The position numbers and the translations under genes are program-made. This document shows positions 39,955-56,449 of a stretch of DNA of 64,000 nt, in pieces. This DNA is from Bartonella sp. HY038 (GTDB taxonomy: Bacteria; Pseudomonadota; Alphaproteobacteria; Rhizobiales; Rhizobiaceae). Under the pieces are notes generated by a model. It saw nothing but the letters and a program-made list of their open reading frames with translations, searched no databases and was not told the origin of the DNA. The DNA lies in contig NZ_CP059725.1 in assembly GCF_014117425.1 (NCBI RefSeq), forward strand, positions 2,294,001-2,358,000. The letters run 5' to 3'. The stretch's first letter is position 1. Each line of letters starts with the position of its first letter.

Positions 39955-41202
39955 ATGCTTGTTGGCGATAATCATCGGGTAAATGGTGAAAGACTTTGGG
40001 ACAGTTTAATGGAAATGGCCTTAATTGGCCCCGGTATAAAGGGCGGTAATAATCGCCAAACTCTTACCGATGAAGACCGCGCGGGGCGGTTATTATTTAC
40101 CAAATGGTGTAAGGATGCTGGCCTTACCATGAAAATTGATACTATGGGCAATATGTTTGCCCGCCTTGATGGCACTGAAAATCATCTCCCACCGGTTGTC
40201 ATGGGTAGCCATCTTGATACACAACCAACCGGCGGCAAATATGATGGTGTTTTAGGGGTATTAGCAGGTTTGGAAGTTATCCGTACAATTCGTGATCTTG
40301 GTATAAAAACGCGCCACCCTATCGAAATTGCCAATTGGACCAATGAGGAAGGTGCACGTTTTGCACCTGCTATGGTTGCTTCAGGTGTTTTTGCCGGTGT
40401 AATTGAGGAAAGTTGGGCAAAACAACAAACCGATAGCGAAGGAAAAAAATTCGGCCTTGAGTTAGAGCGCATTGGTTTTGTTGGTGATGAGCCCTGCGGA
40501 AAACATCCAATTAAAGCCTATTATGAACTTCACATCGAGCAAGGTCCGATTTTAGAAGATGAAGCAATTGATATTGGCGTTGTTACTCACGGCCAAGGCT
40601 TAAAATGGATTGAAATTACCCTTTTAGGCAAAGAAGCTCATACAGGATCAACACCAATGGTCAAGCGCATTGATGCAGGCCTTGGCATGGCGCGCATTTT
40701 AGACCGTGTCAATGATATTGCTTGGCGCTACCCTCCCCATGCAGTGGGAGCAGTGGGCATGGCCAATATCTATCCTAATTCACGCAATATTATTCCTGGT
40801 AAAGCCGTTTTTACCATAGATTTTCGCCATCCTGATAAAACAATAATTCAAGCTATGGTTGATGCTCTCATTCTTGAGGGTAAAAAAATTGCCACGGATT
40901 TGGGATTGGAGTTTAGTTGGCAAGAAGTAGGCGGTTTTGACCCCGTAACCTTTGATAAAACCTGCGTTGACAAAGTGCGCTCCGCTGCAAAACAACTAGG
41001 CTATTCCTATTGTGATATCGTATCTGGCGCAGGCCATGATGCATGCTGGATTAGCCATGTTGCTCCAAGCGCAATGATTATGTGTCCTTGTGTTGATGGA
41101 TTAAGCCATAATGAAGATGAAACGATTACGCCGCAATGGGCAAAATCCGGTAGCGATGTATTGCTAAACGCCGTATTGGCAACGGCAGAAATTATTGATT
41201 AA
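39955..41202 (+). CDS. N-carbamoyl-amino-acid hydrolase / beta-ureidopropionase (M20 family)
   Basis: Zinc-dependent amidohydrolase of the M20/AmaB/HyuC group: removes the carbamoyl group from N-carbamoyl-beta-alanine or N-carbamoyl-L-amino acids. Metal ligands are in MGSHLDTQPTGG, KYDGVLGVLAG and NWTNEEGARFAPAM; the dimerisation domain follows (KEAHTGSTPM), and the closing ligand is in MCPCVDGLSHNEDE. The 415-residue length is typical. It is followed after 172 bases by the dihydropyrimidinase gene, so it is probably the last enzyme (PydC-like) of reductive pyrimidine breakdown. The first enzyme, dihydropyrimidine dehydrogenase, is not in the window. AAGGGG precedes the ATG. Confidence 0.92.
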   Translation: MLVGDNHRVNGERLWDSLMEMALIGPGIKGGNNRQTLTDEDRAGRLLFTKWCKDAGLTMKIDTMGNMFARLDGTENHLPPVVMGSHLDTQPTGGKYDGVLGVLAGLEVIRTIRDLGIKTRHPIEIANWTNEEGARFAPAMVASGVFAGVIEESWAKQQTDSEGKKFGLELERIGFVGDEPCGKHPIKAYYELHIEQGPILEDEAIDIGVVTHGQGLKWIEITLLGKEAHTGSTPMVKRIDAGLGMARILDRVNDIAWRYPPHAVGAVGMANIYPNSRNIIPGKAVFTIDFRHPDKTIIQAMVDALILEGKKIATDLGLEFSWQEVGGFDPVTFDKTCVDKVRSAAKQLGYSYCDIVSGAGHDACWISHVAPSAMIMCPCVDGLSHNEDETITPQWAKSGSDVLLNAVLATAEIID

Positions 41203-41271
41203 TATAAAAAAAGCATTTCTAGCAAGATTTATTGCAAGTTTTGTATTGAGAAAATGCGATAGTATAAAGGG

Positions 41272-41308
41272 TTTTGAGCACGTTAAGTATAAATAAACGT
41301 GCTCAAAA
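41272..41308. repeat. 13-bp inverted repeat upstream of the dihydropyrimidinase gene
   Basis: Perfect arms TTTTGAGCACGTT / AACGTGCTCAAAA with an 11-base loop, 70 bases after the hydrolase stop and 66 bases before the next ATG. No T-run follows on the plus strand. It may be an operator for the second gene or an RNA stem that sets relative expression. Confidence 0.6.
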
Positions 41309-41374
41309 GCGTAACCATTTTAAAATTAAGGGCTTTTGGGTAATGATTTAAAACCTGCAAAATGGGAGGGGAAT

Positions 41375-42832
41375 ATGCCAACAAAACTTATAAAAAACGG
41401 TATTATCGTTACAGCAGATCGTAGCTATAAGGCTGATATTTTAATCAAAGACCAAAAAATCGCGGCAATCGGTGATAATTTACAAGGCGATCGTATTATA
41501 GATGCCAAAGGTTGTTATATCATTCCCGGCGGCATTGATCCCCATACACATTTAGAATTTCCCTTCATGGGAACTCATTCTGCCGATGACTTTGACACTG
41601 GTACTAAGGCGGCAATAGCAGGTGGCACCACTATGGTGGTTGACTTTGCCCTACCCGATGAAAATGGTAGTCTACTTGGCGGCTTACAATCTTGGTTTCA
41701 AAAGGCGGGCAAAGCACGTTGTGATTATTCATTTCATATGGCAATTACCGGTTGGAATGAGCAAATATTTAATGAAATGCATGAAGTGGTTAAGCGCGGC
41801 GTTAACACATTCAAGCATTTCATGGCCTATAAGGGCTCAATCATGGTCAATGATGATGAGATGTTTGCTTCATTTTCACGCTGCGCAGAATTGGGAGCCT
41901 TGACCTTAGTTCATGCTGAAAATGGCGACATCATAGCGCAACTACAACAAAAGTTGACCAAAGAAGGTAAAGTTGGCCCTGAAGCCCATGCATGGTCAAG
42001 ACCCCCTGAAGTTGAGGGAGAAGCAACTAATCGGGCGATTATGATAGCTGACCAAGTTGGCGTTCCACTTTACGTGGTACATGTATCATGCGAAGAAAGT
42101 CATGAAGCAATCCGGCGGGCAAGGCAAAAGGGCATGCGAGTTTACGGCGAACCGTTAATCCAACACCTTACCTTAGATGAAAGTGAATATATGGATAAGG
42201 ACTGGGATCATGCAGCAAGGCGCGTGATGTCTCCACCCTTTCGCAACAAGGAACATCAAAACAGTCTTTGGGCGGGTTTAACTGCAGGTTCGCTACAAGT
42301 GGTTGCAACAGATCATTGCGCATTTACAACGGCGCAAAAACGCCGTGGGTTAAATGACTTTACTGCCATTCCCAATGGTACTGGCGGATTGGAGGAGCGG
42401 CTTGCCTTGCTTTGGACCCATGGGGTGCGCACTGGGCGCTTAACGATGAATGAATTTGTTGCAGTTACCTCTACCAATATTGCAAAAATTTTAAATATTT
42501 ATCCGCAAAAGGGTGCAATTATCGAAGGTGCTGATGCTGATCTTGTCATATGGGACCCAGAAGCCAAAAAGACCTATTCAGCTAAGCAACAAAACTCAGC
42601 CATTGATTATAGCGTATTTGAAGGAATGGAAGTTGTAGGTTTGCCAAAAACTGTGCTAACGCGCGGCAAAATTGCTTATGACAAAGGCGAAGTTATAGCG
42701 CAAGCTGGGGATGGCAAGTTTATTGAACGCCAACCATGGAATGTGGCGAATAAAGCACTTTCCAAGTGGAAAGAATTGGCAACGCCTCAGCCCATAAAAC
42801 GCAACGCGCTACCAATAACGACTGGGATATAA
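41375..42832 (+). CDS. Dihydropyrimidinase (D-hydantoinase)
   Basis: Binuclear zinc amidohydrolase opening dihydrouracil/dihydrothymine (and hydantoins) to N-carbamoyl-beta-amino acids, the substrate of the enzyme encoded just upstream. Visible are the first metal pair in DPHTHLEFPFMG, the carboxylated Lys in FKHFMAYKGSIMV, later His ligands (LVHAENGD, YVVHVSCEES) and the Asp ligand in VATDHCAF. I start at 41375 (MPTKLIKNG, 485 residues, normal length), which has GGGAGGGG; a TTG at 41336 lies in frame upstream but is not needed. The DUF4139 array follows on the opposite strand. Confidence 0.95.
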   Translation: MPTKLIKNGIIVTADRSYKADILIKDQKIAAIGDNLQGDRIIDAKGCYIIPGGIDPHTHLEFPFMGTHSADDFDTGTKAAIAGGTTMVVDFALPDENGSLLGGLQSWFQKAGKARCDYSFHMAITGWNEQIFNEMHEVVKRGVNTFKHFMAYKGSIMVNDDEMFASFSRCAELGALTLVHAENGDIIAQLQQKLTKEGKVGPEAHAWSRPPEVEGEATNRAIMIADQVGVPLYVVHVSCEESHEAIRRARQKGMRVYGEPLIQHLTLDESEYMDKDWDHAARRVMSPPFRNKEHQNSLWAGLTAGSLQVVATDHCAFTTAQKRRGLNDFTAIPNGTGGLEERLALLWTHGVRTGRLTMNEFVAVTSTNIAKILNIYPQKGAIIEGADADLVIWDPEAKKTYSAKQQNSAIDYSVFEGMEVVGLPKTVLTRGKIAYDKGEVIAQAGDGKFIERQPWNVANKALSKWKELATPQPIKRNALPITTGI

Positions 42833-42916: not shown

Positions 42917-44344
42917 TTAATCTTTAGTGCGCACCTTATAGGTAAATAAAGTTTGTCCTTTAGCCTCTACATTGACTTTCCAACGTGCATAATTTGCATT
43001 TAGTTTTTCATGGACAATATCTTCTTCCAAAATTTGCCACTCTTTTGGAAAGAAAATACGAACATCCACTACTATGGCTTCATCCTTGGCATTTTTAACT
43101 GTTATTAAGCTAGTCTTTTCATAGGATGGGTTATCACCCAAACCTACCTTTTTGGCATCTGTGACCTTACCATATACATTAACGTCAAAAGGGTTACCTG
43201 GTGTAAAGGATACCCACTCATTTTCTGCTGTATGCTTAATAGAATCTTCGCCAATAAGCTGTGGATCTCCCTGCTTGTCCGGCTTATAAGCGCGTAAAAT
43301 ACCTTTAGGCAAAGGCACACCTAAATTAGACTGCTTATCATTGAAAAATGAAAAATAGACATTAACATTAAAAGGCTCACCTTCATTATTGGAATTCGTC
43401 TTACTCGTTAAATACGAGCCAAATAGGTGTGGCTCGGCTATATAGAATTTTTGAACTGGAATATCATAAGCGGCCATTAAGGCAATCTGCTTTACCTGTT
43501 TATTTTTAAGTGTCGTTGAATAAGGTAACGTGTAAAGATGATAGTCAAATAAATTTTCGTGTCCGGAGAATGCCTTACCCGTTCCCGCGCCGTCGTGAAG
43601 TACACCAGATTGTGTTACCATCCAGTCTAATTTTACAATATTGATTTTCCCGGCAACAAGTTTAACCGTCGCGTCATGATAATCTGTGCCGCTATTATTG
43701 GTAAGCGTAACCCAACCTTTAAGGGAAATGCAATTTTCTTGTTGATTAAGCTCAGCAACATAATCGGCAATCCAACTAAAGCCGCTTGAAAGATAAGAAA
43801 TTTCCACTTGCCGCGTACCAGCTTTGCTACACATAATATCGGTTGCTAAGGTTGGGCGATCGCGTAAATTTTGTGGCAATGCGTCAAATTTTATTCGCGC
43901 ATATTTGGGTAAACCAATTTCAATACGGTCACAATATTGTAAAACAAGACCAGAATTATTGGAAAGAATAGTTGCCTTTTCTTCATACTCATCGCCAGCA
44001 CTATTGCGCATGACGATTGTCACTTCTTTGCCAACATATTTTTCGGTTAGGGCATCCGGTGTTAAGAGATCAAAATTAAAATTTTGCTCAATCACGTTCA
44101 ACTCAGTACCGTCTGTAGCAGTCATAATTGCGGTTTCTGGTCGTATTTTTCCAGAAACATCACGCAAGGCAATGCGGTTCATACCACTATTCAAATTTAG
44201 GTCGCGCACTTCACGCACAAGAGCTAAATGTTCATTATAAATTGTAACCGCAATTTCTTTACGCGCATTGCTAAAACTCACCTGTTCATCAATAGGGCGC
44301 ATTTCTATTTGGTGGTTTACGTTTTTATTTTCATCTCTTTCCAT
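42917..44344 (-). CDS. DUF4139 protein, copy 6 of tandem array (no signal peptide)
   Basis: Last-transcribed of six tandem DUF4139 paralogues, 475 residues. It shares the array's N-terminal block (ARKEIAVTIYNEHLALVREVRDL, ALRDVSGKIRPETAIM, EQNFNFDLLTPDALTEKYVGKEV, LPQNLRDRPTL) and the C-terminal DUF4139 block. Alone among the six it has no signal peptide: it opens MERDENKNVNHQIEMRPIDEQ, a charged leader. The ATG has GAGGG upstream, so this start looks real and the protein may be cytoplasmic. The central patch (VKLDWMVTQSGVLHDGAG) is unlike every other copy. Function unknown; DUF4139 occurs in MuiA-like mucoidy-inhibitor proteins, but the DUF4140 half of those is absent. Confidence 0.9.
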   Translation of the reverse strand: MERDENKNVNHQIEMRPIDEQVSFSNARKEIAVTIYNEHLALVREVRDLNLNSGMNRIALRDVSGKIRPETAIMTATDGTELNVIEQNFNFDLLTPDALTEKYVGKEVTIVMRNSAGDEYEEKATILSNNSGLVLQYCDRIEIGLPKYARIKFDALPQNLRDRPTLATDIMCSKAGTRQVEISYLSSGFSWIADYVAELNQQENCISLKGWVTLTNNSGTDYHDATVKLVAGKINIVKLDWMVTQSGVLHDGAGTGKAFSGHENLFDYHLYTLPYSTTLKNKQVKQIALMAAYDIPVQKFYIAEPHLFGSYLTSKTNSNNEGEPFNVNVYFSFFNDKQSNLGVPLPKGILRAYKPDKQGDPQLIGEDSIKHTAENEWVSFTPGNPFDVNVYGKVTDAKKVGLGDNPSYEKTSLITVKNAKDEAIVVDVRIFFPKEWQILEEDIVHEKLNANYARWKVNVEAKGQTLFTYKVRTKD

Positions 44345-44410
44345 AAATTACCCTCACGCTAAAAACCTTATACCAACCGTATCAAAATACCTCACCATGG
44401 TTATGTGCAA

Positions 44411-45916
44411 CTAAAATTTGGTGCTTACTCCAAAAACAAAATTTTGCACCCTCTTTTTGATATGTAATCGTAGCTTATAATTGAAAACTTTTTGCTCGTT
44501 TGGTTCTAGCTTTACTTTCCAAAGCACGTTATTTGCGTCAACATTGATGTGGGACAAATCTTCATCCAAAATCACCCACTCATCTTCAAAATGAAACCGT
44601 ACCCAAACTTCGACAGCCTGATTTTTTGTATTTTCTATTGTAATTTTATGATTTGCTTCCGAAATGGTGCCATTTTCAATTTCGGTTTTAGATAACCCTG
44701 TTATATCGTCATAAGCCTTTATATCATCGGTAGTAACCGATTTTAAAGCTACGCGTTCGCCCTCCATCGTGTGATTTATAAATTTTTCATTTAAAAGCAG
44801 CATGTCACCTTTATTATCTGCTTTATAGCTACGCAAAGTTCCCTTTGGCATTGGTATTCCCAAATTGGAGTGCTTATCATTTAAAAAATAATAATTGGCG
44901 CTAGCACTAAGTTTTTCACGACGATCCCAATCTTTAGATTGCGTATCATATCGCCGTTGGGTTAAGTCTGAGTACGACAGCTCATAATATTTATAAACTG
45001 GTATGTTCTCAATGTTCATCAACGCGACTTGCTTTACCTGTTTATCCTTAAGGGCCGTTGGTTGTGGTAGCGTATAAAGATGATAATCAAGTATGGGGGC
45101 TTCTAATTTTACAGAAACACCAAAATTAAAATTTTGTACCCGATCTTCCTTTTCTGCTAAGTTTTTTCGTTCTTCAGGAACCAAGTTAAGCTCACCTGCG
45201 ACAAGCTGAATTTTGGCGTTTTCAAAACTCGTACCACTATTATTTTTTAATGTTACCCAGCCCTTTAAAGACATTTTGTTATTGTCTTTGTTTAATTGTG
45301 CAACATAATCTGCCTTCCAATGTAAACCACTGGAAAGATAGGCTATATCGACGTGGCGTGTGCCCGCAGTATCGCTTATTATGTCGGTCACGAGCGTTGG
45401 CCGATCACGTAAATTTTGCGGCAGGCTATCAAATTTAATCCGTGCATCTTTTGGCAAACCTATTTCAATGCGGTCAGCATATTTGAAAATAAGACCATTA
45501 TTGGCTGAAAGAAGAAATGCCTTTTCTTCAGTAATGCTGCCATCTTGGTTACGGCGAATAATAGTTAATTCCTTGCCAACATTTTTTTCATTCAAAGAAT
45601 TAGGGGTTAAAAGATCAAAATTAAAATTTTGTTCAAGAACATGAATTATTGCATTGTCTTTAAACTTCATAATTGCTGTTTCTGGTCTGATTTTGCCTGA
45701 AACATCACGCAGTGCTATGTGATTTAACCCCTTTTTAAAATCAAGTTCGCGTACCTCACGCACCAAGGCCAGATCATCATTATAGATTGTCAGCGCAATT
45801 TCTTTGCGGGCATCGCCAAAACTTGTTACTTCCATCACGTCTTCTGCTAAGACCTGTAGTGTACTGCCAAGTAAAAGACTTGCGCAGCACGCAACTAATT
45901 GAGTGGTCTTTTTCAT
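44411..45916 (-). CDS. DUF4139 secreted protein, copy 5 of tandem array
   Basis: 501 residues, the longest copy. Signal peptide about 1-25 (ending TLQVLAED), then the shared N-terminal block (ARKEIALTIYNDDLALVREV, DVSGKIRPETAIM, FDLLTPNSLNEKNVGKEL). The first central patch reads ERKNLAEKEDRVQNFNFGVS and the second YYELSYSDLTQRRYDTQSKD. The C-terminus is odd: after the normal ending (KVFNYKLRLH) it runs on with IKKRVQNFVFGVSTKF, a near copy of the patch-1 motif RVQNFNFGVSVKLEAP of the same protein, also visible at the DNA level. The usual ending of the other copies (YKVRTSN-stop) is thus replaced. Confidence 0.92.
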   Translation of the reverse strand: MKKTTQLVACCASLLLGSTLQVLAEDVMEVTSFGDARKEIALTIYNDDLALVREVRELDFKKGLNHIALRDVSGKIRPETAIMKFKDNAIIHVLEQNFNFDLLTPNSLNEKNVGKELTIIRRNQDGSITEEKAFLLSANNGLIFKYADRIEIGLPKDARIKFDSLPQNLRDRPTLVTDIISDTAGTRHVDIAYLSSGLHWKADYVAQLNKDNNKMSLKGWVTLKNNSGTSFENAKIQLVAGELNLVPEERKNLAEKEDRVQNFNFGVSVKLEAPILDYHLYTLPQPTALKDKQVKQVALMNIENIPVYKYYELSYSDLTQRRYDTQSKDWDRREKLSASANYYFLNDKHSNLGIPMPKGTLRSYKADNKGDMLLLNEKFINHTMEGERVALKSVTTDDIKAYDDITGLSKTEIENGTISEANHKITIENTKNQAVEVWVRFHFEDEWVILDEDLSHINVDANNVLWKVKLEPNEQKVFNYKLRLHIKKRVQNFVFGVSTKF

Positions 45917-46031
45917 TATTACCCCTTATGGAAAAATTGGCCTATTCAATGTTTTTATGGGCTTAAAGCGCTTGATGCGAAAATCCAAAAATAATTTTTC
46001 TTTTAAAAAACGCAATGCAATTAGCAACTTA

Positions 46032-46070
46032 AAGCATGTATTAGCTTCCCAATAAAGCGGACATGCTTTT
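46032..46070 (-). repeat. Hairpin after DUF4139 copy 4
   Basis: Nine-base arms AAAGCATGT / ACATGCTTT with an inner GCTT/AAGC stem, beginning 15 bases after the copy-4 stop on the transcribed strand. The minus strand has no T-run after it, so it is more likely an mRNA 3'-end or processing stem than a terminator. It lies in the largest gap (169 bp) of the array. Confidence 0.5.
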
Positions 46071-46085
46071 TGGTTAAACGCTATT

Positions 46086-47552
46086 TTATTCGCTTACACG
46101 AACTGTATAGGTGAGCGTGGCTTCGCTTTTTGGATCAACTTTAACCTTCCAAACAACATGTTTATCATCGCGCTTTTCATGGGCAATGTTTTCTTCCAAA
46201 ACTTCCCATTCGCCATAAAAACGCCTCGGTACTTCGACAATAACCGCCTCATCTTTGGTATTTTTAAAGGTAATTTCATTGGTGGTTTCAGAAGTAGAGC
46301 CAGATTTTATGCTTAAGCCAAATTTTTTGCTTTCTGTACTTTTCATTTGTGCAGAAATATCAAGTGCATTGCCAAACTTTAATCGCACCTTGGCATTGGG
46401 ATCAACATGGTCAATAATATTTTGACTTAAAAATACTGGACTGCCATTTTTATCCAAAGCAAAGCTTCTAATATTGCCACTTGGCAAAGGCATACCAAGA
46501 TTGGATTGTTTATCATTGGCAAAATCAAAATAAACGCCAATAGTGGCTTTTTGCTCGCCAAAAGAGCTCGACTTGCTATAGCTATAATCATTAGAATTGC
46601 TGCCTTCGCCGTCAAGAATATAATGCTTGACGACCGGTACTTCCACGCCATTTACCAAAGCTGCTTGCGTGTCAACTTCATGATTAAGGGTGACCGGCTG
46701 CGATATGGTATAGGAATTGTAATTGAAGGCAGCGCGATCTTCAAAAGATTGGTCGGCTAGCGTAATGCCGGGCTCTTCAATATCTATCCTTGTTTTACCC
46801 TTTTTTTCATAAGAACCAAAAACATCAGCTTTGCCCGCAATTATGGTTAATTTTGCATTTTGATAACTGATATCCGTATTATTTTTAATTGTTACCCAAC
46901 CCGTAAAAAGCATTTTGTCTTCGCTAGCATTAAGCTTTACCGCATATTCTGCACCCCAATCAAATCCTTTAGAAAGATAGGAAAGGTCAACGGTCTTTTT
47001 GCCCTCTTCACTGCTCATCACCTTGGCTAGCAAAGTTGGCTGGTCATATAGGTTTTGCGGTAAGCTGCCAAAATCAACGCGCACATCGGCAGGAAGACCG
47101 GCAGTAATTCTATCGGCATATTGCAAAATAAGGCCTGAATCATTTGATAGAATGGTTGCCTTTTCAGAGCGTTCTTCGCCATTTTTGTCGCGGCTAACAA
47201 TGGTGACTTGTTGGCCAACATATTTTGCCGTTAAATTGGCTGGAGTTAACTGATCAAAATGAAAGCTTTGTTGCAACATCTGGAGTTGTGTTTGCGCAGA
47301 ACTCAAAAAGGCTGTTTCCGGTCGTATCATGCGCGAAACATTACGAAAAGCAATGCTGTTGATACCTTCGCTAAGGTTAACATCGCGCTGCTCATGCACT
47401 AATGCGAGACTATCTTTATAAAGGGTAATTGCTATCTCTTTACTTGACTGAGCAGAAATTATTTGTTGATCCACCGTTTGTGCTGATGATTGGGTGATTG
47501 ATGCCACCAATAATGATGCACAACTGGCAAGAAGTATTTTTGACTGTTTCAT
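46086..47552 (-). CDS. DUF4139 secreted protein, copy 4 of tandem array (most divergent)
   Basis: 488 residues, signal peptide about 1-24 (MKQSKILLASCASLLVASI...SSAQ). The same architecture is present, but this copy differs most in the N-terminal block: KEIAITLYKDSLALVHEQRDVNL, AFRNVSRMIRPETAFL, QQSFHFDQLTPANLTAKYVGQQV. The central patches (DVFGSYEKKGKTRIDIEEPG and LDGEGSNSNDYSYSKSSS) are again unique. The conserved DUF4139 elements SNLGMPLPSGNIRSF, VPRRFYGEWEVLEENIAHEK and VWKVKVDPKSEATLTYTVR are intact. It appears not to have taken part in the recent sequence homogenisation seen among copies 1-3. Confidence 0.92.
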   Translation of the reverse strand: MKQSKILLASCASLLVASITQSSAQTVDQQIISAQSSKEIAITLYKDSLALVHEQRDVNLSEGINSIAFRNVSRMIRPETAFLSSAQTQLQMLQQSFHFDQLTPANLTAKYVGQQVTIVSRDKNGEERSEKATILSNDSGLILQYADRITAGLPADVRVDFGSLPQNLYDQPTLLAKVMSSEEGKKTVDLSYLSKGFDWGAEYAVKLNASEDKMLFTGWVTIKNNTDISYQNAKLTIIAGKADVFGSYEKKGKTRIDIEEPGITLADQSFEDRAAFNYNSYTISQPVTLNHEVDTQAALVNGVEVPVVKHYILDGEGSNSNDYSYSKSSSFGEQKATIGVYFDFANDKQSNLGMPLPSGNIRSFALDKNGSPVFLSQNIIDHVDPNAKVRLKFGNALDISAQMKSTESKKFGLSIKSGSTSETTNEITFKNTKDEAVIVEVPRRFYGEWEVLEENIAHEKRDDKHVVWKVKVDPKSEATLTYTVRVSE

Positions 47553-47588
47553 GAAATAATCCTCAACGTAAAAATGCTTAAATTATGA

Positions 47589-49046
47589 TTAATTACTCGT
47601 GCGTACCTTATAGGTGAGTACAGCTTCACTTTTGGGATCTACTTTTACGCGCCATATAACAGTATTGGCGCTGCGTTTTTGATGAGGAATATTTTCATTT
47701 AATATTTCCCAGTTTTTATAAAAATTAGTTGGAATTTCAACTACAACGGGCTCATCCTTAACGTTTTTAACCGTAAGTTGATTTGTTGTTTCATAACCTT
47801 TTCTTGAATCTAAACTCAAGCTAACCTTTTCGTGCTCTAAGGTTTTTGCATAGACTTTAACATCAAATGCATCGCCAAATTTCACCCGCACATTTTCTTT
47901 GTCAGCAGTGTGATCAATGCTATCTTCGCCGATAAAAAGTACATTGCCTTTGCTATCAGGCTTATAGGCTCTCAATACGCCTTTGGGTAAAGGCAAACCC
48001 AAATTGGATTCCTTATCATTTACAAAGTTAAAATAGACCCCAACTTTAAGTGGCACTCCTTCTTCATCCATATTATAGTGAGAATATATGCGCCTAGTCT
48101 CCTCAAGGCTATAATGTTTTTCGACTGGCACATTATCTGCGCTCATTAAAGCCACTTGTTTAATTTGATTATTATTTAATGTGGTTGGATGTGGCAAGGT
48201 ATAAAGATGATAGTCAAGCAGCGCTTCCTGCTGCATAGGTGTGAACATTACCATTACCTTATCCTGACTGCTTCCTCCAGCCCACTTATCTTTGTGAGCG
48301 TTAAGATCAACTTGATTAATATCACCAGCCACCAACTGTAATTTCGCGTCCTTATAAGATGTGCCACTATTATTTTGGAGTGTTACCCAACCTTTTAGGG
48401 AAATTCTATTTTCGTCATTGTTAAGCTCAGCAACATAGTCGGCTTTCCAGTTAAAGCCACCTGAAAGATAGGCAATCTTAACTTCTTTATTGCCTGTTTC
48501 TTCACTCATAATATCGGTGATGAGTGTTGGGCGATCGCGAAGATTGTGCGGCAAGGTATCAAATTTTATCCGCGCATCTTTTGGTAAACCAATTTCAATT
48601 CGGTCATTATATTTTAAAACAAGGCCGGAATTATTGGAAAGAAGGACCGCTTTTTCTGAATTTTCACTGCCGTCTTGGTTGAGCCTAACAATGGTAACTT
48701 CCTTACCTACATATTTTGCAGTTAAAGCGTCTGGCGTTAAAAGATCAAAATTGAAATTTTGCTCAATCACATAAAGTTTGGCATTGTCCTTAGTGGTCAT
48801 AATCGCCGTTTCAGGCTTAATCTTGCCGGAGACATCACGCAAAGCAAAATGATTAACGCCCTTTTGCAAATCAAGATCTCGAACTTCACGCACCAATGCC
48901 AAATTTTCATTATAAATGGTTACGGCAACTTCTTTTCGCGCATCGCCCGAGCTAACCTTTTCAGCGCTGGTTTGAGCTGAAGATTGAGCAATACTTGCAA
49001 TAAATAAGGTTGCACAGCTTGCAAGACATGTCGTAAAAATTTTCAT
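47589..49046 (-). CDS. DUF4139 secreted protein, copy 3 of tandem array
   Basis: 485 residues with a signal peptide (about 1-25, ending SSAQT). The N-terminal block is nearly identical to copy 2 at both protein and DNA level: for example the DNA over 48600-48780 differs from the matching stretch of copy 2 by only a handful of bases. It diverges sharply in the first central patch (QVDLNAHKDKWAGGSSQDKV) and second (SLEETRRIYSHYNMDEEG). C-terminal elements: NFVNDKESNLGLPLPKGVLRAY, VEIPTNFYKNWEILNENIPH and WRVKVDPKSEAVLTYKVR. A 36-base gap leads to copy 4, so readthrough is very likely. Confidence 0.93.
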   Translation of the reverse strand: MKIFTTCLASCATLFIASIAQSSAQTSAEKVSSGDARKEVAVTIYNENLALVREVRDLDLQKGVNHFALRDVSGKIKPETAIMTTKDNAKLYVIEQNFNFDLLTPDALTAKYVGKEVTIVRLNQDGSENSEKAVLLSNNSGLVLKYNDRIEIGLPKDARIKFDTLPHNLRDRPTLITDIMSEETGNKEVKIAYLSGGFNWKADYVAELNNDENRISLKGWVTLQNNSGTSYKDAKLQLVAGDINQVDLNAHKDKWAGGSSQDKVMVMFTPMQQEALLDYHLYTLPHPTTLNNNQIKQVALMSADNVPVEKHYSLEETRRIYSHYNMDEEGVPLKVGVYFNFVNDKESNLGLPLPKGVLRAYKPDSKGNVLFIGEDSIDHTADKENVRVKFGDAFDVKVYAKTLEHEKVSLSLDSRKGYETTNQLTVKNVKDEPVVVEIPTNFYKNWEILNENIPHQKRSANTVIWRVKVDPKSEAVLTYKVRTSN

Positions 49047-49095
49047 ATTATAATCCTTGCAGTTAAAGTTCGCACCAGTGCTAAATTACACTTCA

Positions 49096-50550
49096 TTAGC
49101 GAATACGGACTTTATAAATAAGTTTTTCGTTGCTTTCTGGCTGAACCTTTATTTTCCATAAGCCAATTTCTGAATTCTGCTTTTCATGAGAAAAATTTTC
49201 TTCTAATATCTTCCACTTACCATAGAAAAAGACTGGTATTTCAACCTCTACAGCTTCTCTTTTTGCATTCTTTATAATAACTTGATTGGTATATTCATAA
49301 ATTGAATCATCATTTGAGTTCGTACCTATTTTTTTAACCTCCAGTGATTTAGCATAAAGATTAACATCGAATGCATTACCAAATTTCATAGATATTTTTT
49401 CATTATTTGCGGTATGTTTGATGCTATCCTCACCGATGAATAACGCATTTCCTTGACTATCGGCCTTAAAGGCACGTACATTACCTTTAGGTATAGGTAT
49501 GCCTAAATTTGACTCTTTGTTATTAATTAAATTGAAATAAACACCAACTTCATATGGTTTTCCGTCACCATTAATAAAGTTTTGCTTTCTATCATCAAAA
49601 ACCTTGAGAATATCAGAAATGTAGCGTTTTTTAACTGGCACTTCATCAGCGCTCATCAAGGCTACTTGTTTGATTTGGTTATTATTTAATGTCGTGGCAT
49701 GAGGCAAAATATAAAGATGGTAATCCAGCAGTGACTCCTCTTCAATTTTTGATGGACCGGCTATCGTCATCAGAACCTCCATTTGTCCATCAACGCTTTG
49801 GTTTAAAGGTACAACTTTATTAACATCACCTGCAACCAGCTGTAATTTCGCGTCCTTATAAGATGTGCCACTATTATTTTGGAGTGTTACCCAACCTTTT
49901 AAGGAAATTCTATTTTCATCTTTGTTAAGTTCAGCAACATAGTCGGCTTTCCAGCTAAAGCCACCTGAAAGATAGGCAATGTTAACTTCTTTATTGCCTG
50001 TTTCTTCACTCATAATATCAGTGACCAGTGTTGGGCGGTCGCGAAGATTTTGCGGCAAAGCATCAAATTTTATTCGTGCATCTTTTGACAAACCAATTTC
50101 AATTCGGTCATTATATTTTAAAACAAGGCCGGAATTATTGGAAAGAAGGACTGCTTTTTCTGAATTTTCACTGCCGTCTTGGTTGAGCCTAACAATGGTA
50201 ACTTCCTTACCTACATATTTTGCAGTTAAAGCGTCTGGCGTTAAAAGGTCAAAATTAAAATTTTGTTCAATTACATAAAGCTTAGCATTGTCCTTAGTGG
50301 TCATAATCGCCGTTTCAGGCTTAATCATGCCGGAGACATCACGCAATGCAAAATGATTAACGCCCTTTTGCAAATCAAGATCGCGAACCTCACGCACCAG
50401 TGCCAAATCTTCATTGTAAATAGTAATGGCAATATCTTTGCCAGCATCACTGGTACTTACTTGCGCGTTTTGGTCTTGCGCAAAAGATTGAGTAATTGAG
50501 GTAAAGCAAAAGATTAAACTGTTCAAAAACAGCCAAGCTGCTTTTTTCAT
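49096..50550 (-). CDS. DUF4139 secreted protein, copy 2 of tandem array
   Basis: 484 residues with a differing signal peptide (about 1-24, LFLNSLIFCFTSITQSFAQ). Residues 35-240 are almost the same as in copy 3, whereas the central patches (NKVVPLNQSVDGQMEVLM and ISDILKVFDDRKQNFINGDG) and the C-terminal 150 residues (EVKKIGTNSNDDSIYEYTNQ, VEIPVFFYGKWKILEENFSH) differ. This block pattern points to gene conversion limited to the N-terminal half. It is preceded by a GC-rich RNA fold at the end of copy 1, and followed by copy 3 after 49 bases. Confidence 0.93.
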   Translation of the reverse strand: MKKAAWLFLNSLIFCFTSITQSFAQDQNAQVSTSDAGKDIAITIYNEDLALVREVRDLDLQKGVNHFALRDVSGMIKPETAIMTTKDNAKLYVIEQNFNFDLLTPDALTAKYVGKEVTIVRLNQDGSENSEKAVLLSNNSGLVLKYNDRIEIGLSKDARIKFDALPQNLRDRPTLVTDIMSEETGNKEVNIAYLSGGFSWKADYVAELNKDENRISLKGWVTLQNNSGTSYKDAKLQLVAGDVNKVVPLNQSVDGQMEVLMTIAGPSKIEEESLLDYHLYILPHATTLNNNQIKQVALMSADEVPVKKRYISDILKVFDDRKQNFINGDGKPYEVGVYFNLINNKESNLGIPIPKGNVRAFKADSQGNALFIGEDSIKHTANNEKISMKFGNAFDVNLYAKSLEVKKIGTNSNDDSIYEYTNQVIIKNAKREAVEVEIPVFFYGKWKILEENFSHEKQNSEIGLWKIKVQPESNEKLIYKVRIR

Positions 50551-50621
50551 AAGCCCCCCTTTAAAATGTCTTTATCGCAGGTTTCAAACGGTTTTATAAC
50601 TGTGAGTTGCTATTTCGTTTT

Positions 50622-50660
50622 GTTGCCCCGCAATTAGCGGGGCAACGAAAAGCTAATTGC
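50622..50660 (-). repeat. GC-rich hairpin overlapping a second inverted repeat at the copy-1 stop
   Basis: GTTGCCCCGC (50622-50631) pairs perfectly with GCGGGGCAAC (50637-50646), an unusually GC-rich stem here. A second pair, GCAATTAGC (50630-50638) with GCTAATTGC (50652-50660), overlaps its loop and the copy-1 stop codon. On the mRNA the four segments interleave (1:3 and 2:4), so the two stems are mutually exclusive or form a pseudoknot. No T-run follows. A ribosome ending copy 1 would cover segment 1 and so influence which stem forms. Confidence 0.6.
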
Positions 50661-52110
50661 TGGTGCGTACCTTATAGGTAAGTACACTCGAGCTCTTAGG
50701 GTCAACCTTTACTCTCCATACGGCAGAATAGGCACTGCGCTTTTCATGCGGAATATTCTCTTGCAGCACTTCCCAATTACTATAAAAATTTGCTGGAATT
50801 TCAACCACAACCGGCTCATCCTTAGCATTTTTAACCGTGAGTTCATTTGTAATTTCATAAATTGGGTTTGAATTTAAACTCAAGCCAACCTTTTTATGCT
50901 CCAAGGTTTTGCCGTAAACCTTAACATCGAAGGCATTGCCAAATTTCACCCGCACGGTTTCTTTATCAGCAGTGTGAGCAATGCTATCTTCACCGATAAA
51001 AAGCACATTGCCCTTACTATCAGGCTTATAGGCACGCAATACGCCTTCGGGTAAAGGCACGCCTAAATTGGATTCCTTATCATTTACAAAATTAAAATAG
51101 ACACCAACGGTAAGTGCTTGCCCTTCTTCATCGCTGTTATAGGTAGAAAAGGAACTGCTTGTAGCCGCAGCAATATAGCGCTTTTCGACCGGCACATTGT
51201 CTGCGCCCATCAAGGCCACTTGTTTGATTTGATTATTATTGAGCGTAGTTGGTTGCGGTAAACTATAAAGATGATAATCAAGGAAAGATTCTTCAGCCAT
51301 TTCCTCCTTAAATGGAGAGCTACGGGCTTGAACGTCATCTCCCCCACGAATTTCCGCACGTACATAGCCACGTGCTCTATTAATTTCACCTGCAACCAGT
51401 TGTAATTTGGCATCCTTAAAAGATGTGCCACTATTATTTTGTAAGGTAACCCAACCTTTTAACGAAATTCTATTTTCATCTTTGTTAAGTTCAGCAACAT
51501 AGTCGGCTTTCCAGCTAAAGCCACCTGAAAGATAGGCGATATTAACTTCCTTAGCTCCTTCCTCATCACTCATAATATCAGTGACCAGTGTTGGACGATC
51601 GCGAAGATTTTGCGGCAAGGCATCAAATTTTATTCGCGCATCCTTTGGCAAACCAATTTCAATACGGTCACTATATTTTAAAACAAGGCCAGAATTATTG
51701 GAAAGAATGGTGGCTTTTTCTGAATTTTCGCTACCATCTTGGTTGCGACTAACAATGGTAACTTCCTTACCGACATATTTTTCAGTCAAAGCTTCTGGTG
51801 TTAAAAGGTCAAAATTGAAATTTTGCTCAATCACATAAAGCTTAGCATTATCCTTGGTGGTCATAATGGCAGTTTCTGGCTTAATCATGCCAGAAACATC
51901 ACGCAACGCAAAATGATTAACGCCTTTTTGTAAATCAAGGTCGCGCACTTCACGCACCAATGCCAAATTTTCATTATAAATGGTAACTGCAACTTCTTTA
52001 CGCGCATCGCCCGAACTTACTTTTTCAGCGCTTGTTTGAGCCGAAGATTGGGCAATGCCTGCAATGAGCAAAGTTGCACAGCTTGCAAGTAGCATATTAG
52101 CCTTTTTCAT
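50653..52110 (-). CDS. DUF4139 secreted protein, copy 1 (first-transcribed) of tandem array
   Basis: 485 residues with a signal peptide (about 1-25, MKKANMLLASCATLL...SSAQT) and a strong ribosome site (AAGGAG). The conserved N-terminal block is residues 35-240 (VAVTIYNENLALVREVRDLD, VNHFALRDVSGMIKPETAIM, IEIGLPKDARIKFDALP). The first variable patch is 244-276 (NRARGYVRAEIRGGDDVQAR), the second 313-334 (IAAATSSSFSTYNSDEEG). The DUF4139 part continues to the end with SNLGVPLPEGVLRAYKPDSKG, VEIPANFYSNWEVLQENIPH and WRVKVDPKSSSVLTYKVR. Secreted, probably periplasmic or surface-bound beta-rich protein of unknown function. Its promoter should lie in 52111-52306. Confidence 0.93.
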   Translation of the reverse strand: MKKANMLLASCATLLIAGIAQSSAQTSAEKVSSGDARKEVAVTIYNENLALVREVRDLDLQKGVNHFALRDVSGMIKPETAIMTTKDNAKLYVIEQNFNFDLLTPEALTEKYVGKEVTIVSRNQDGSENSEKATILSNNSGLVLKYSDRIEIGLPKDARIKFDALPQNLRDRPTLVTDIMSDEEGAKEVNIAYLSGGFSWKADYVAELNKDENRISLKGWVTLQNNSGTSFKDAKLQLVAGEINRARGYVRAEIRGGDDVQARSSPFKEEMAEESFLDYHLYSLPQPTTLNNNQIKQVALMGADNVPVEKRYIAAATSSSFSTYNSDEEGQALTVGVYFNFVNDKESNLGVPLPEGVLRAYKPDSKGNVLFIGEDSIAHTADKETVRVKFGNAFDVKVYGKTLEHKKVGLSLNSNPIYEITNELTVKNAKDEPVVVEIPANFYSNWEVLQENIPHEKRSAYSAVWRVKVDPKSSSVLTYKVRTSN

Positions 52111-52306: not shown

Positions 52307-52337
52307 AAGGTGAGATAACATTTTGCCATCTCACCTT
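52307..52337 (-). terminator. Terminator of grpE
   Basis: Perfect ten-base arms AAGGTGAGAT / ATCTCACCTT with an 11-base loop; on the minus strand TTTATTTT follows. It separates grpE from the DUF4139 array, which must therefore have its own promoter. Confidence 0.9.
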
Positions 52338-54691: not shown

Positions 54692-56449
54692 ATGTCAAAA
54701 ATTATTTATGGCTTATTGGCTGTACTGTTTGGCTTAACCATGTTTTCTAGTTCTAAAAGTGCCCATGCTGATGCGCTTTATGACAAATGCCTAGATGATA
54801 AGGCAGATGGAACCAATTTTGATTGGTCGACTTGTGGGGCAGTTTATCTCAAGCGTATAGATAATGATCTAAATATTACATGGCGTAAAATAATCGATAG
54901 CTATCAAAGCCACCCCAATGGCGAAACAATCAAAAAGCAGCTCATAGATCAACAACGCTTGTGGATTACGTTTAAAGAGCAGTCCTGCCAGCCTTTTTTT
55001 GACGGCTTTCGTGGCCGTGAAGGACAGGTAATGCATTTTTTTGGTTGCCGCGGCGCGATTGTTGAGGATCGCATAGCTCAATTGAAGCAGTTTTATTGTA
55101 ATGACGGTGCTACTTGTCATTTTTCCGACTATGAAATTGATGACCTTCTATCCGACATTGAAATATCCGATCGCGAGCTTAATAAGGCCTATCAATTTAT
55201 TAGAAAACGGCTAGAAGACATTTTTTCAGACACAGAAAATGATGAGTATTACAAGCAATTTAATCCGCCTGCCATATCATTGCGCAATGAGCAGCGCGCT
55301 TGGGTAGAATTTAAAGACAAAGCTTGCCTTTTTATGAATGATCTTAACCCTGATGTAGCAAGCCCAAAGCCAATTTTTCGTATTAACCGTTGTAAAGATT
55401 TAATAACCCGTCATCGGCAAGAGGAACTGAGTTTTTATTGTGATATGGCCGATTGTTTTTTACCCAATAAGCCAGCCATTAAAGATAACCAATGGGAAAT
55501 TGGCTGCGATCAAAGCTATAGTTGCACTGCAGTTGGACATGGTGGTGAAAGCTTTTCAAGCCTACCCAACTACATTGTTATAAAATGGCAATATCATAGT
55601 ACAAAGCCGGCTGAAATACGCTTTATGCTTTACTTAAGTGAGGCTCAACACAATGATGAGCCTAAAAAAGATAAAATTGAAATGCAATATCAAGCCTATG
55701 CTTATTTTGATGATAAGAAAAAGGGCGATATTTCAGCTTTTTTACAAAACCAACCCACGGCGGAGGATAATCAAGGATCATTCAATATTAATGTAAAAAA
55801 TGACCATATCGAAAATATAATGCATCATCTACTGCATGACAAAGTGCTTAATTTTGGCCTAATCAACGCAAAAGACAGTAAAGTTGCATTAAACTTGAAA
55901 AGCTTTCAAAACTTTTATCAAGATACTAAGGATTACGTCGATTTTTTCTATCCCAATCAAGTGGTAAGCCTGCCAAAGGTAAAGGCCTATCGTCTCTTTA
56001 TTGATGATATTAATGTTAAAACGCCTGAATCCTTATTGCCACCTCCTGACGAAGACGCCTGCAACCGCAATATATGGTCAGATGTTATTTTTCATGCGAG
56101 CAATGGCGATCACTTTTATGCAATGTGCGACAATACGGGTGCATATAATGGCTCTTACACAATTTTGCAGCCTAAAGATAATTATAAACCCTATCCTACG
56201 GAAAAAATAGATAATCAAGATAGGCGGAATGAATTTTATAATTCTTTTGGGTTAGAAAAACCAACCATGACCTTTACCGACTTTCCAAAAGGCAGAGCAC
56301 TTGGAGATTGTGGTATAATCACTGACTATAGCTATACGCCCGATGGATTTCGCCGAACAAAAGTAACGCGTATGGACACTTGCGCAGGTATTGATTGGCA
56401 AGATTGGCCGGTTGTTTATAATCTTGATGTCGAGGAAATAAGGCAATAG
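54692..56449 (+). CDS. Secreted protein with two LprI-like repeats and a DUF1176-like domain
   Basis: 585 residues. Signal peptide about 1-26 (ending SAHADA). Two consecutive LprI/DUF1311-type repeats follow: residues 27-140 (LYDKCLDDK, LIDQQRLWITFKEQSCQPFF, GCRGAIVEDRIAQLKQFYC) and 150-252 (LNKAYQFIRKRLE, RNEQRAWVEFKDKACLFM, INRCKDLITRHRQEEL). From about 268 to the end lies a DUF1176-like region beginning WEIGCDQSYSCTAVG and ending GDCGIITDYSYTPDG with CAGIDWQDWPVVYNLD. LprI is a lysozyme inhibitor in mycobacteria; DUF1176 is unknown. The combination suggests a periplasmic envelope-protection role, an inference only. GGGGG precedes the ATG. Confidence 0.78.
   Translation: MSKIIYGLLAVLFGLTMFSSSKSAHADALYDKCLDDKADGTNFDWSTCGAVYLKRIDNDLNITWRKIIDSYQSHPNGETIKKQLIDQQRLWITFKEQSCQPFFDGFRGREGQVMHFFGCRGAIVEDRIAQLKQFYCNDGATCHFSDYEIDDLLSDIEISDRELNKAYQFIRKRLEDIFSDTENDEYYKQFNPPAISLRNEQRAWVEFKDKACLFMNDLNPDVASPKPIFRINRCKDLITRHRQEELSFYCDMADCFLPNKPAIKDNQWEIGCDQSYSCTAVGHGGESFSSLPNYIVIKWQYHSTKPAEIRFMLYLSEAQHNDEPKKDKIEMQYQAYAYFDDKKKGDISAFLQNQPTAEDNQGSFNINVKNDHIENIMHHLLHDKVLNFGLINAKDSKVALNLKSFQNFYQDTKDYVDFFYPNQVVSLPKVKAYRLFIDDINVKTPESLLPPPDEDACNRNIWSDVIFHASNGDHFYAMCDNTGAYNGSYTILQPKDNYKPYPTEKIDNQDRRNEFYNSFGLEKPTMTFTDFPKGRALGDCGIITDYSYTPDGFRRTKVTRMDTCAGIDWQDWPVVYNLDVEEIRQ

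Follow-up and report, generated by a model that had tools for sequence, protein, structure and literature searches.

A six-gene tandem array of DUF4139-type proteins in a bat-associated Bartonella, with signs of recombination between its copies

DUF4139 proteins are widespread and hardly studied; a literature search by name returned no paper about DUF4139 by title, and a separate search gave none combining tandem paralogs, gene conversion, hypervariability and the Bartonella outer membrane. In Bartonella sp. HY038, a window of 64,000 nucleotides (the whole stretch of DNA analysed here) contains six such genes side by side, and the question raised by this locus is how the array arose, how its conserved and variable parts came to be combined and what a set of related proteins with different loops might be for. 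The host is close to Bartonella sp. HY406 and HY761, both isolated from bat faeces, and an 18.7 kb contig of its own genome matches a plasmid of Bartonella sp. HY406 over its full extent at 97.8% identity. The bat-faeces isolates HY038 and HY328 have been reported as related to B. tamiae (PMC9769573).

The array, its surroundings and its relatives

A preliminary description of this DNA had listed six same-strand reading frames of 475-501 codons at 42917-52110, separated by short gaps; all six were found, on the minus strand, with gaps of 102, 49, 36, 169 and 66 bp. They are called w6 to w1 here, w6 being copy 1, which adjoins grpE, and the homologues in the sister genome (G026, locus L035) are called g1-g6 and numbered as w1-w6.

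52307..52337, minus strand: terminator-like hairpin in the interval between grpE and the array, a consensus match only
50653..52110, minus strand: w6, copy 1, DUF4139-type protein of 485 aa with a leader-like N-terminus, PF13598 at 35.0 bits
49096..50550, minus strand: w5, copy 2, 484 aa with a leader-like N-terminus, PF13598 at 29.0 bits (below the cut-off)
47589..49046, minus strand: w4, copy 3, 485 aa with a leader-like N-terminus, PF13598 at 36.0 bits
46086..47552, minus strand: w3, copy 4, 488 aa with a leader-like N-terminus, PF13598 at 48.7 bits
44411..45916, minus strand: w2, copy 5, 501 aa with a leader-like N-terminus, PF13598 at 33.1 bits
42917..44344, minus strand: w1, copy 6, 475 aa without a leader and with three cysteines, PF13598 at 22.6 bits (below the cut-off)

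A protein search of the host's own genome returned these six genes and no further homologue, and a Pfam profile search of the same genome recovered five of the six. Identity to copy 1 over the whole protein is 67% for w5, 60% for w1, 51% for w2 and 48% for w3. The near-identical N-terminal halves ascribed to all six copies were seen in w6, w5 and w4 but not in w3, w2 and w1; copies 2 and 3 are indeed almost the same in DNA (92-96% over residues 81-242), and the divergent C-half of copy 2 was also recovered.

On the side away from grpE, the array is followed by a gene that we take to encode a malic enzyme. In the sister genome this gene directly adjoins the array; in the window the two are separated by genes for an M20 peptidase and an amidohydrolase (39955-42832), which are absent from that place in the sister genome. 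A single reading frame at 54692-56449 combines LprI-type (two stretches) and DUF1176 domains. Scans for promoter patterns gave no clear excess (18 matches versus 14.6 by chance, and 35 versus 31.0), and gene neighbourhood was set aside as a guide to function: apart from the homologues themselves, no cluster of adjacent reading frames extended over more than eight of 78 loci.

The sister genome, the one other genome of the genus covered by the analysis, likewise has six homologues next to grpE, with order and orientation unchanged. That one or two of the genes had been inflated by the misassembly of repeats is a thought invited by the long tract shared by copies 2 and 3, but it is contradicted by this separate genome of the genus, in which six copies follow one another in that very order, and most intergenic stretches are also alike by position between the genomes (compared by eye, unaligned); we consider such an artefact extremely improbable. 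In a FastTree phylogeny with 78 homologues (from 78 of 79 loci, L090 with its broken frame being left out), the 12 array genes of the two species group together as a single clade (support 1.0). The local duplication that had been suggested is supported.

Tandem multiplication on this scale was not met with elsewhere, and six is the largest copy number observed in any genome or locus. A scan of GTDB found 366 stretches encoding a relative, the best 80 of which were used and gave 79 loci; within the stretch examined, 66 of these 79 best-scoring loci are single-copy, 11 have two copies, and one locus each has three and four, versus six in tandem here. PF13598 is matched by 29 of 297 genomes of the host's bacterial family, and each of the 27 outside the genus has a single match. 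Across the class, 84 of 385 genomes gave a match; since no more than four candidates per genome were scored, the copy numbers there are lower bounds, the array itself having registered four of its six. The longest array outside the genus among the loci examined consists of four tandem DUF4139-type genes in a metagenome bin of UBP7 (L118, 4418-10179).

Family, fold and export

The cut-off for DUF4139 (PF13598; 31.8 bits) is passed by four of the six proteins (w2, w3, w4 and w6), and the array proteins match the profile over most of the DUF4139 domain. The cut-off for MuiA (TIGR02231; 112.6 bits) is not reached, w6 scoring 32.1 bits and the best E-value of the six being 7.5e-9. In P. aeruginosa, muiA is reported to belong to the SbrI regulon, which is tied to cell-envelope stress (PMC10418997). 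What function may be proposed for the array is read from the family only, through the related but distinct MuiA. An origin in defence systems or phages was considered and rejected, PHROGs and PADLOC giving weak scattered matches (best E-values 0.0034 and 0.0047, one member each).

No homologue was found in the PDB by sequence (best E-value 0.71), and the proteins were modelled with AlphaFold2. The models of w6 (mean pLDDT 88.3, from 84 sequences) and w3 (mean pLDDT 87.4, given 66 of the 79 homologous loci) are both all-beta with a confident core. Outside this core lie two patches, previously described as hypervariable exposed segments.

51280..51384, minus strand: patch 1 of copy 1, residues 243-277, a low-confidence loop
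51112..51174, minus strand: patch 2 of copy 1, residues 313-333, a lower-confidence loop

Patch 1 has a pLDDT below 50 in both models, and patch 2 is a lower-confidence loop in that of w6 and falls partly below 50 in that of w3, so that both patches are predicted to be loops and, in agreement with the preliminary description, are probably exposed. The best PDB fold match of both models is to the luminal domains of Ost1/ribophorin I (E-values 3.6e-5 and 5.4e-4), but with a TM-score of 0.13 and 10% identity this is at most a lead on beta-domain topology and not a relationship. When the w6 model was compared with a viral structure library, seven of nine matches at E-values up to 0.001 were giant-virus proteins, one of them named DUF4139 and most of them unnamed, from Tupanvirus, Pandoravirus, pithoviruses and Orpheovirus; these matches show the spread of the fold and nothing on mechanism.

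Export of five copies, as proposed earlier, is predicted from the leader-like hydrophobic N-terminus that a hydropathy script finds in w2-w6 and not in copy 6. The leader is also absent from the sister copy 6 (g1), and in-frame stop codons lie just upstream of w1. Beyond the leader, the five copies that carry one are free of cysteine; w1 and g1 each contain three, and 57 of the 78 homologues lack cysteine past residue 45. Copy 6 is therefore probably, as far as its sequence tells, a cytoplasmic paralogue of an exported family.

Recombination between copies

Between the two genomes, the malic-enzyme gene and grpE give a baseline dS of 0.32 and 0.27. Two array pairs behave like ordinary orthologues (w3/g3, dS 0.19; w2/g2, 0.31), copy 4 being 94% identical to its sister orthologue g3 with the patches included, and two others lie above the baseline (w6/g6, 0.79; w4/g4, 0.54). 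Synonymous divergence along the genes, which had been proposed as a check, was examined with a breakpoint test on synonymous differences in ten pairs, with the patches left out and 1000 permutations. It proved uneven in half of the pairs at the 0.05 level, namely w5/w4, w1/g1 and w5/g5 (0/1000 permutations each), w6/g4 (1/1000) and w2/g2 (12/1000); in the other half uniformity was not rejected (w3/g3 54, w6/w4 55, w4/g4 78, w4/g6 230 and w6/g6 658 of 1000). With this reservation for half of the pairs, none of the three outcomes named beforehand as refuting the preliminary interpretation (uniform synonymous divergence, buried patches, an assembly artefact) told against it.

The clearest history is that of copy 2. 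Compared with copy 3, it has a breakpoint at residue 238, with pS 0.28 to the left (leader included) and 0.80 to the right, and a run of 54 identical polymorphic sites reached in 0/300 shuffles; compared with g5, it has a breakpoint at residue 54, with pS 0.17 before and 0.67 after. These two breakpoints describe w5 as a mosaic, whose leader goes with g5, whose N-half goes with w4 and whose C-half is close to no copy. The suggested gene conversion of the N-half thus finds support in the breakpoint at 238 and the long identical run, and the donor is, on the sequence comparisons, a copy-3-like gene. Since g5 lacks the tract, the conversion probably took place after the species split, although in residues 81-190 w5 is about equally close to g4 and w4. 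Run-length tests of the 15 pairs in the window's genome were clear for w5/w4 and w6/w5 (0/300 each), and among the 15 pairs in the sister genome the strongest were g2/g1 (1/300) and g3/g1 (5/300), with short runs and weak signals.

A comparable break separates the two versions of copy 6, w1/g1 having a breakpoint at residue 234 with pS 0.10 before and 0.61 after. Both this breakpoint and that at 238 fall just before patch 1, at the end of the strongly conserved coding sequence, which is what one would expect of tracts that run only as far as the homology does.

49831..50388, minus strand: converted tract of copy 2, like copy 3, about residues 55-240
42917..43672, minus strand: C-half of copy 6, whose rate of divergence from the sister copy is not that of an orthologue, replaced in one of the two species
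51211..51390, minus strand: segment of copy 1 whose nearest relative is sister copy 3, about residues 241-300
48147..48326, minus strand: segment of copy 3 whose nearest relative is sister copy 1, about residues 241-300

The last two features come from a quartet test, in which the three possible trees for w4, w6, g4 and g6 were compared over six segments and then over 12 finer pieces. Residues 411-485 favour orthology by position (exchanged tree p-AU 0.004, raw, one of six segments) and residues 241-334 the exchanged pairs w6-g4 and w4-g6 (p-AU of the positional tree 0.0007, raw, one of six segments), the remaining four segments being undecided or, for the patches alone, again favouring the exchanged pairing. 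In the finer split, all values being raw over the 12 pieces, patch 1 is the part that carries the exchange (p-AU 2e-5 for the positional tree), with residues 278-312 tending toward it (0.126), and the final 40 residues support orthology by position (p-AU 0.014 for the exchanged tree). Shuffle tests of patch 1, made without multiple-alignment scoring, point the same way, with z 8.6 for w6-g4, 6.9 for w4-g6 and 2.6 for w6-g6. The segment around patch 1 thus has a history that is, as read from these trees, exchanged between copies 1 and 3, with a positional C-terminus. That both patches move together, as the block 241-334 hinted, was not retained, patch 2 alone being undecided in the quartet test. 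A weak resemblance links the patches of g1 and g6, with z 3.5 for patch 1 and 5.7 for patch 2.

The nearest known parallel in mode of working is offered by the trwL and trwJ-trwH arrays of Bartonella (Trw type IV secretion), where tandem paralogues are reported to recombine and diversify (PMC2883598, PMC3483213). These arrays, too, are described as tandem, exported, recombining paralogues in the same broad lineage, and tandem paralogues recombining between copies are likewise found here. However, their protein family is unrelated to DUF4139, diversifying selection is reported there, and they belong to a secretion system, whereas no secretion machine stands beside the DUF4139 array.

The variable patches and what they may do

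The patches had been described as completely different in each copy. For patch 1 this stands, with 3-24% identity in all 15 window pairs, but the patch 2 versions of copies 1 and 3 are related (43% identity, z 6.4, 0/300 shuffles). The diversifying pressure proposed for the patches was not borne out by a counting method applied to the two genomes, pN being lower than pS in all alignable patch pairs (w3/g3 0.03/0.24, w2/g2 0.25/0.30, w6/g4 0.28/0.52 and w4/g6 0.39/0.56); pN exceeds pS in patch 2 of w5/w4 (0.64 versus 0.53, at 10% identity) and w5/g5 (0.64 versus 0.49, at 17% identity), where the measure means little. Random codon pairs give a pS of 0.74 (range 0.55-0.91), and the unalike patch pairs lie near that level and are therefore saturated or not homologous.

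Ordinary relatives provide a background for this variability, patch 1 being a linker that varies across the family and has a high content of Ala, Met and Pro. Among 25 homologue pairs with a core identity of 0.75-0.90, patch 1 has a mean of 0.58 (minimum 0.35) and patch 2 a mean of 0.71 (minimum 0.32). For patch 1, w3/g3, w2/g2 and w6/g4 lie within this background, and w4/g6 (0.43) lies under all 13 pairs of like core identity and over the overall minimum; w6/g6 (0/12), w1/g1 (0/13), w4/g4, w6/w4, g6/g4 and the listed w5 pairs lie under every homologue pair of like core. The excess is smaller for patch 2, for which homologue pairs as low were found for w4/g4 (1/11), w6/w4 (1/13) and g6/g4 (2/14), and none for w6/g6, w2/g2 and w1/g1.

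These figures bear on a possibility that we take seriously without preferring it, in which the patches are largely unconstrained linkers subject to drift. Recombination would then only make the frames more alike, at times taking a loop with it; the array would owe its existence to dosage or chance, and diversity would not be selected. The low model confidence of patch 1 and its variability across the family would agree with such drift, as would the near-neutral patches of w2/g2 and the synonymous saturation of unalike patches; it is at odds with the constraint on the patches of copy 4 (94 and 92% conserved between species, with the low pN given above), with the mismatched array pairs that fall under every like-core homologue pair for patch 1 and with the loss of the linker's usual make-up, Ala, Met and Pro accounting for 0.17 of patch 1 in the array versus 0.36 in the ordinary linker. 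On the patch data as a whole, the simplest account is that the loops are old or were imported, and that the frames on either side of them have been homogenised or are under constraint.

We are inclined instead toward a genus-specific tandem expansion of an exported DUF4139-type envelope protein, in which the frame has undergone conversion and loops and C-halves have recombined. In copy 2 the N-half has been overwritten from a copy-3-like gene, and exchange or replacement has affected the segment around patch 1 and the C-half of copy 6. The leader-bearing products may then be periplasmic or surface all-beta proteins, whose flexible loops could serve as variable contact sites, recombination keeping up a collection of variants that share a scaffold and differ in their loops; copy 6, with cysteines and no leader, would stay in the cytoplasm. 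On this expansion reading the array proteins may be surface antigens or binders, and selection for diversity is possible. Against it stand the lack of any alignable patch pair with pN above pS, the variability of patch 1 in ordinary relatives too, the failure of patch 2 to follow patch 1, the five of ten pairs compatible with uniform divergence and the weak conversion signals inside the sister genome.

Antigenic variation of a surface protein, driven by host immunity and working through the recombinational replacement of loops while the host is colonised, would suit tandem, recombining genes that are predicted to be exported, whose loops are their most variable part and whose lineage comes from bat faeces, but appears improbable to us: the protein search of the genome gives six full frames and no archive-type silent partial copies, a DNA search with one segment of copy 3, the only segment so searched, matched solely inside the array, and the patches carry no dN/dS signal.

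The fold is kept and the loops are changed in the array, which makes the loops likely contacts and the array a natural experiment on what the DUF4139 family binds. Should the exchange prove to be under selection, the recombining tandem arrays known from the Bartonella lineage would gain a protein family that has no relation to the Trw pili. More speculatively, one may picture a DUF4139 display family in a bat-associated Bartonella relative, in which the patch-1 segment is a movable module, reassorted between copies by recombination beside a conserved block; the bacterium would thereby command an assortment of proteins with different faces, as well as one leaderless cytoplasmic member.

Two further observations concern copy 5. 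Its C-terminal tail (RVQNFVFGVSTKF, 44414-44452) repeats its own patch-1 stretch (RVQNFNFGVSVKL), with similar DNA, and the tail occurs in both species. In the sister genome (L035, 6122-7708), patch 2 of copy 5 also carries 23 additional residues, inserted in frame and including a repeated YYF-NDKQ motif.
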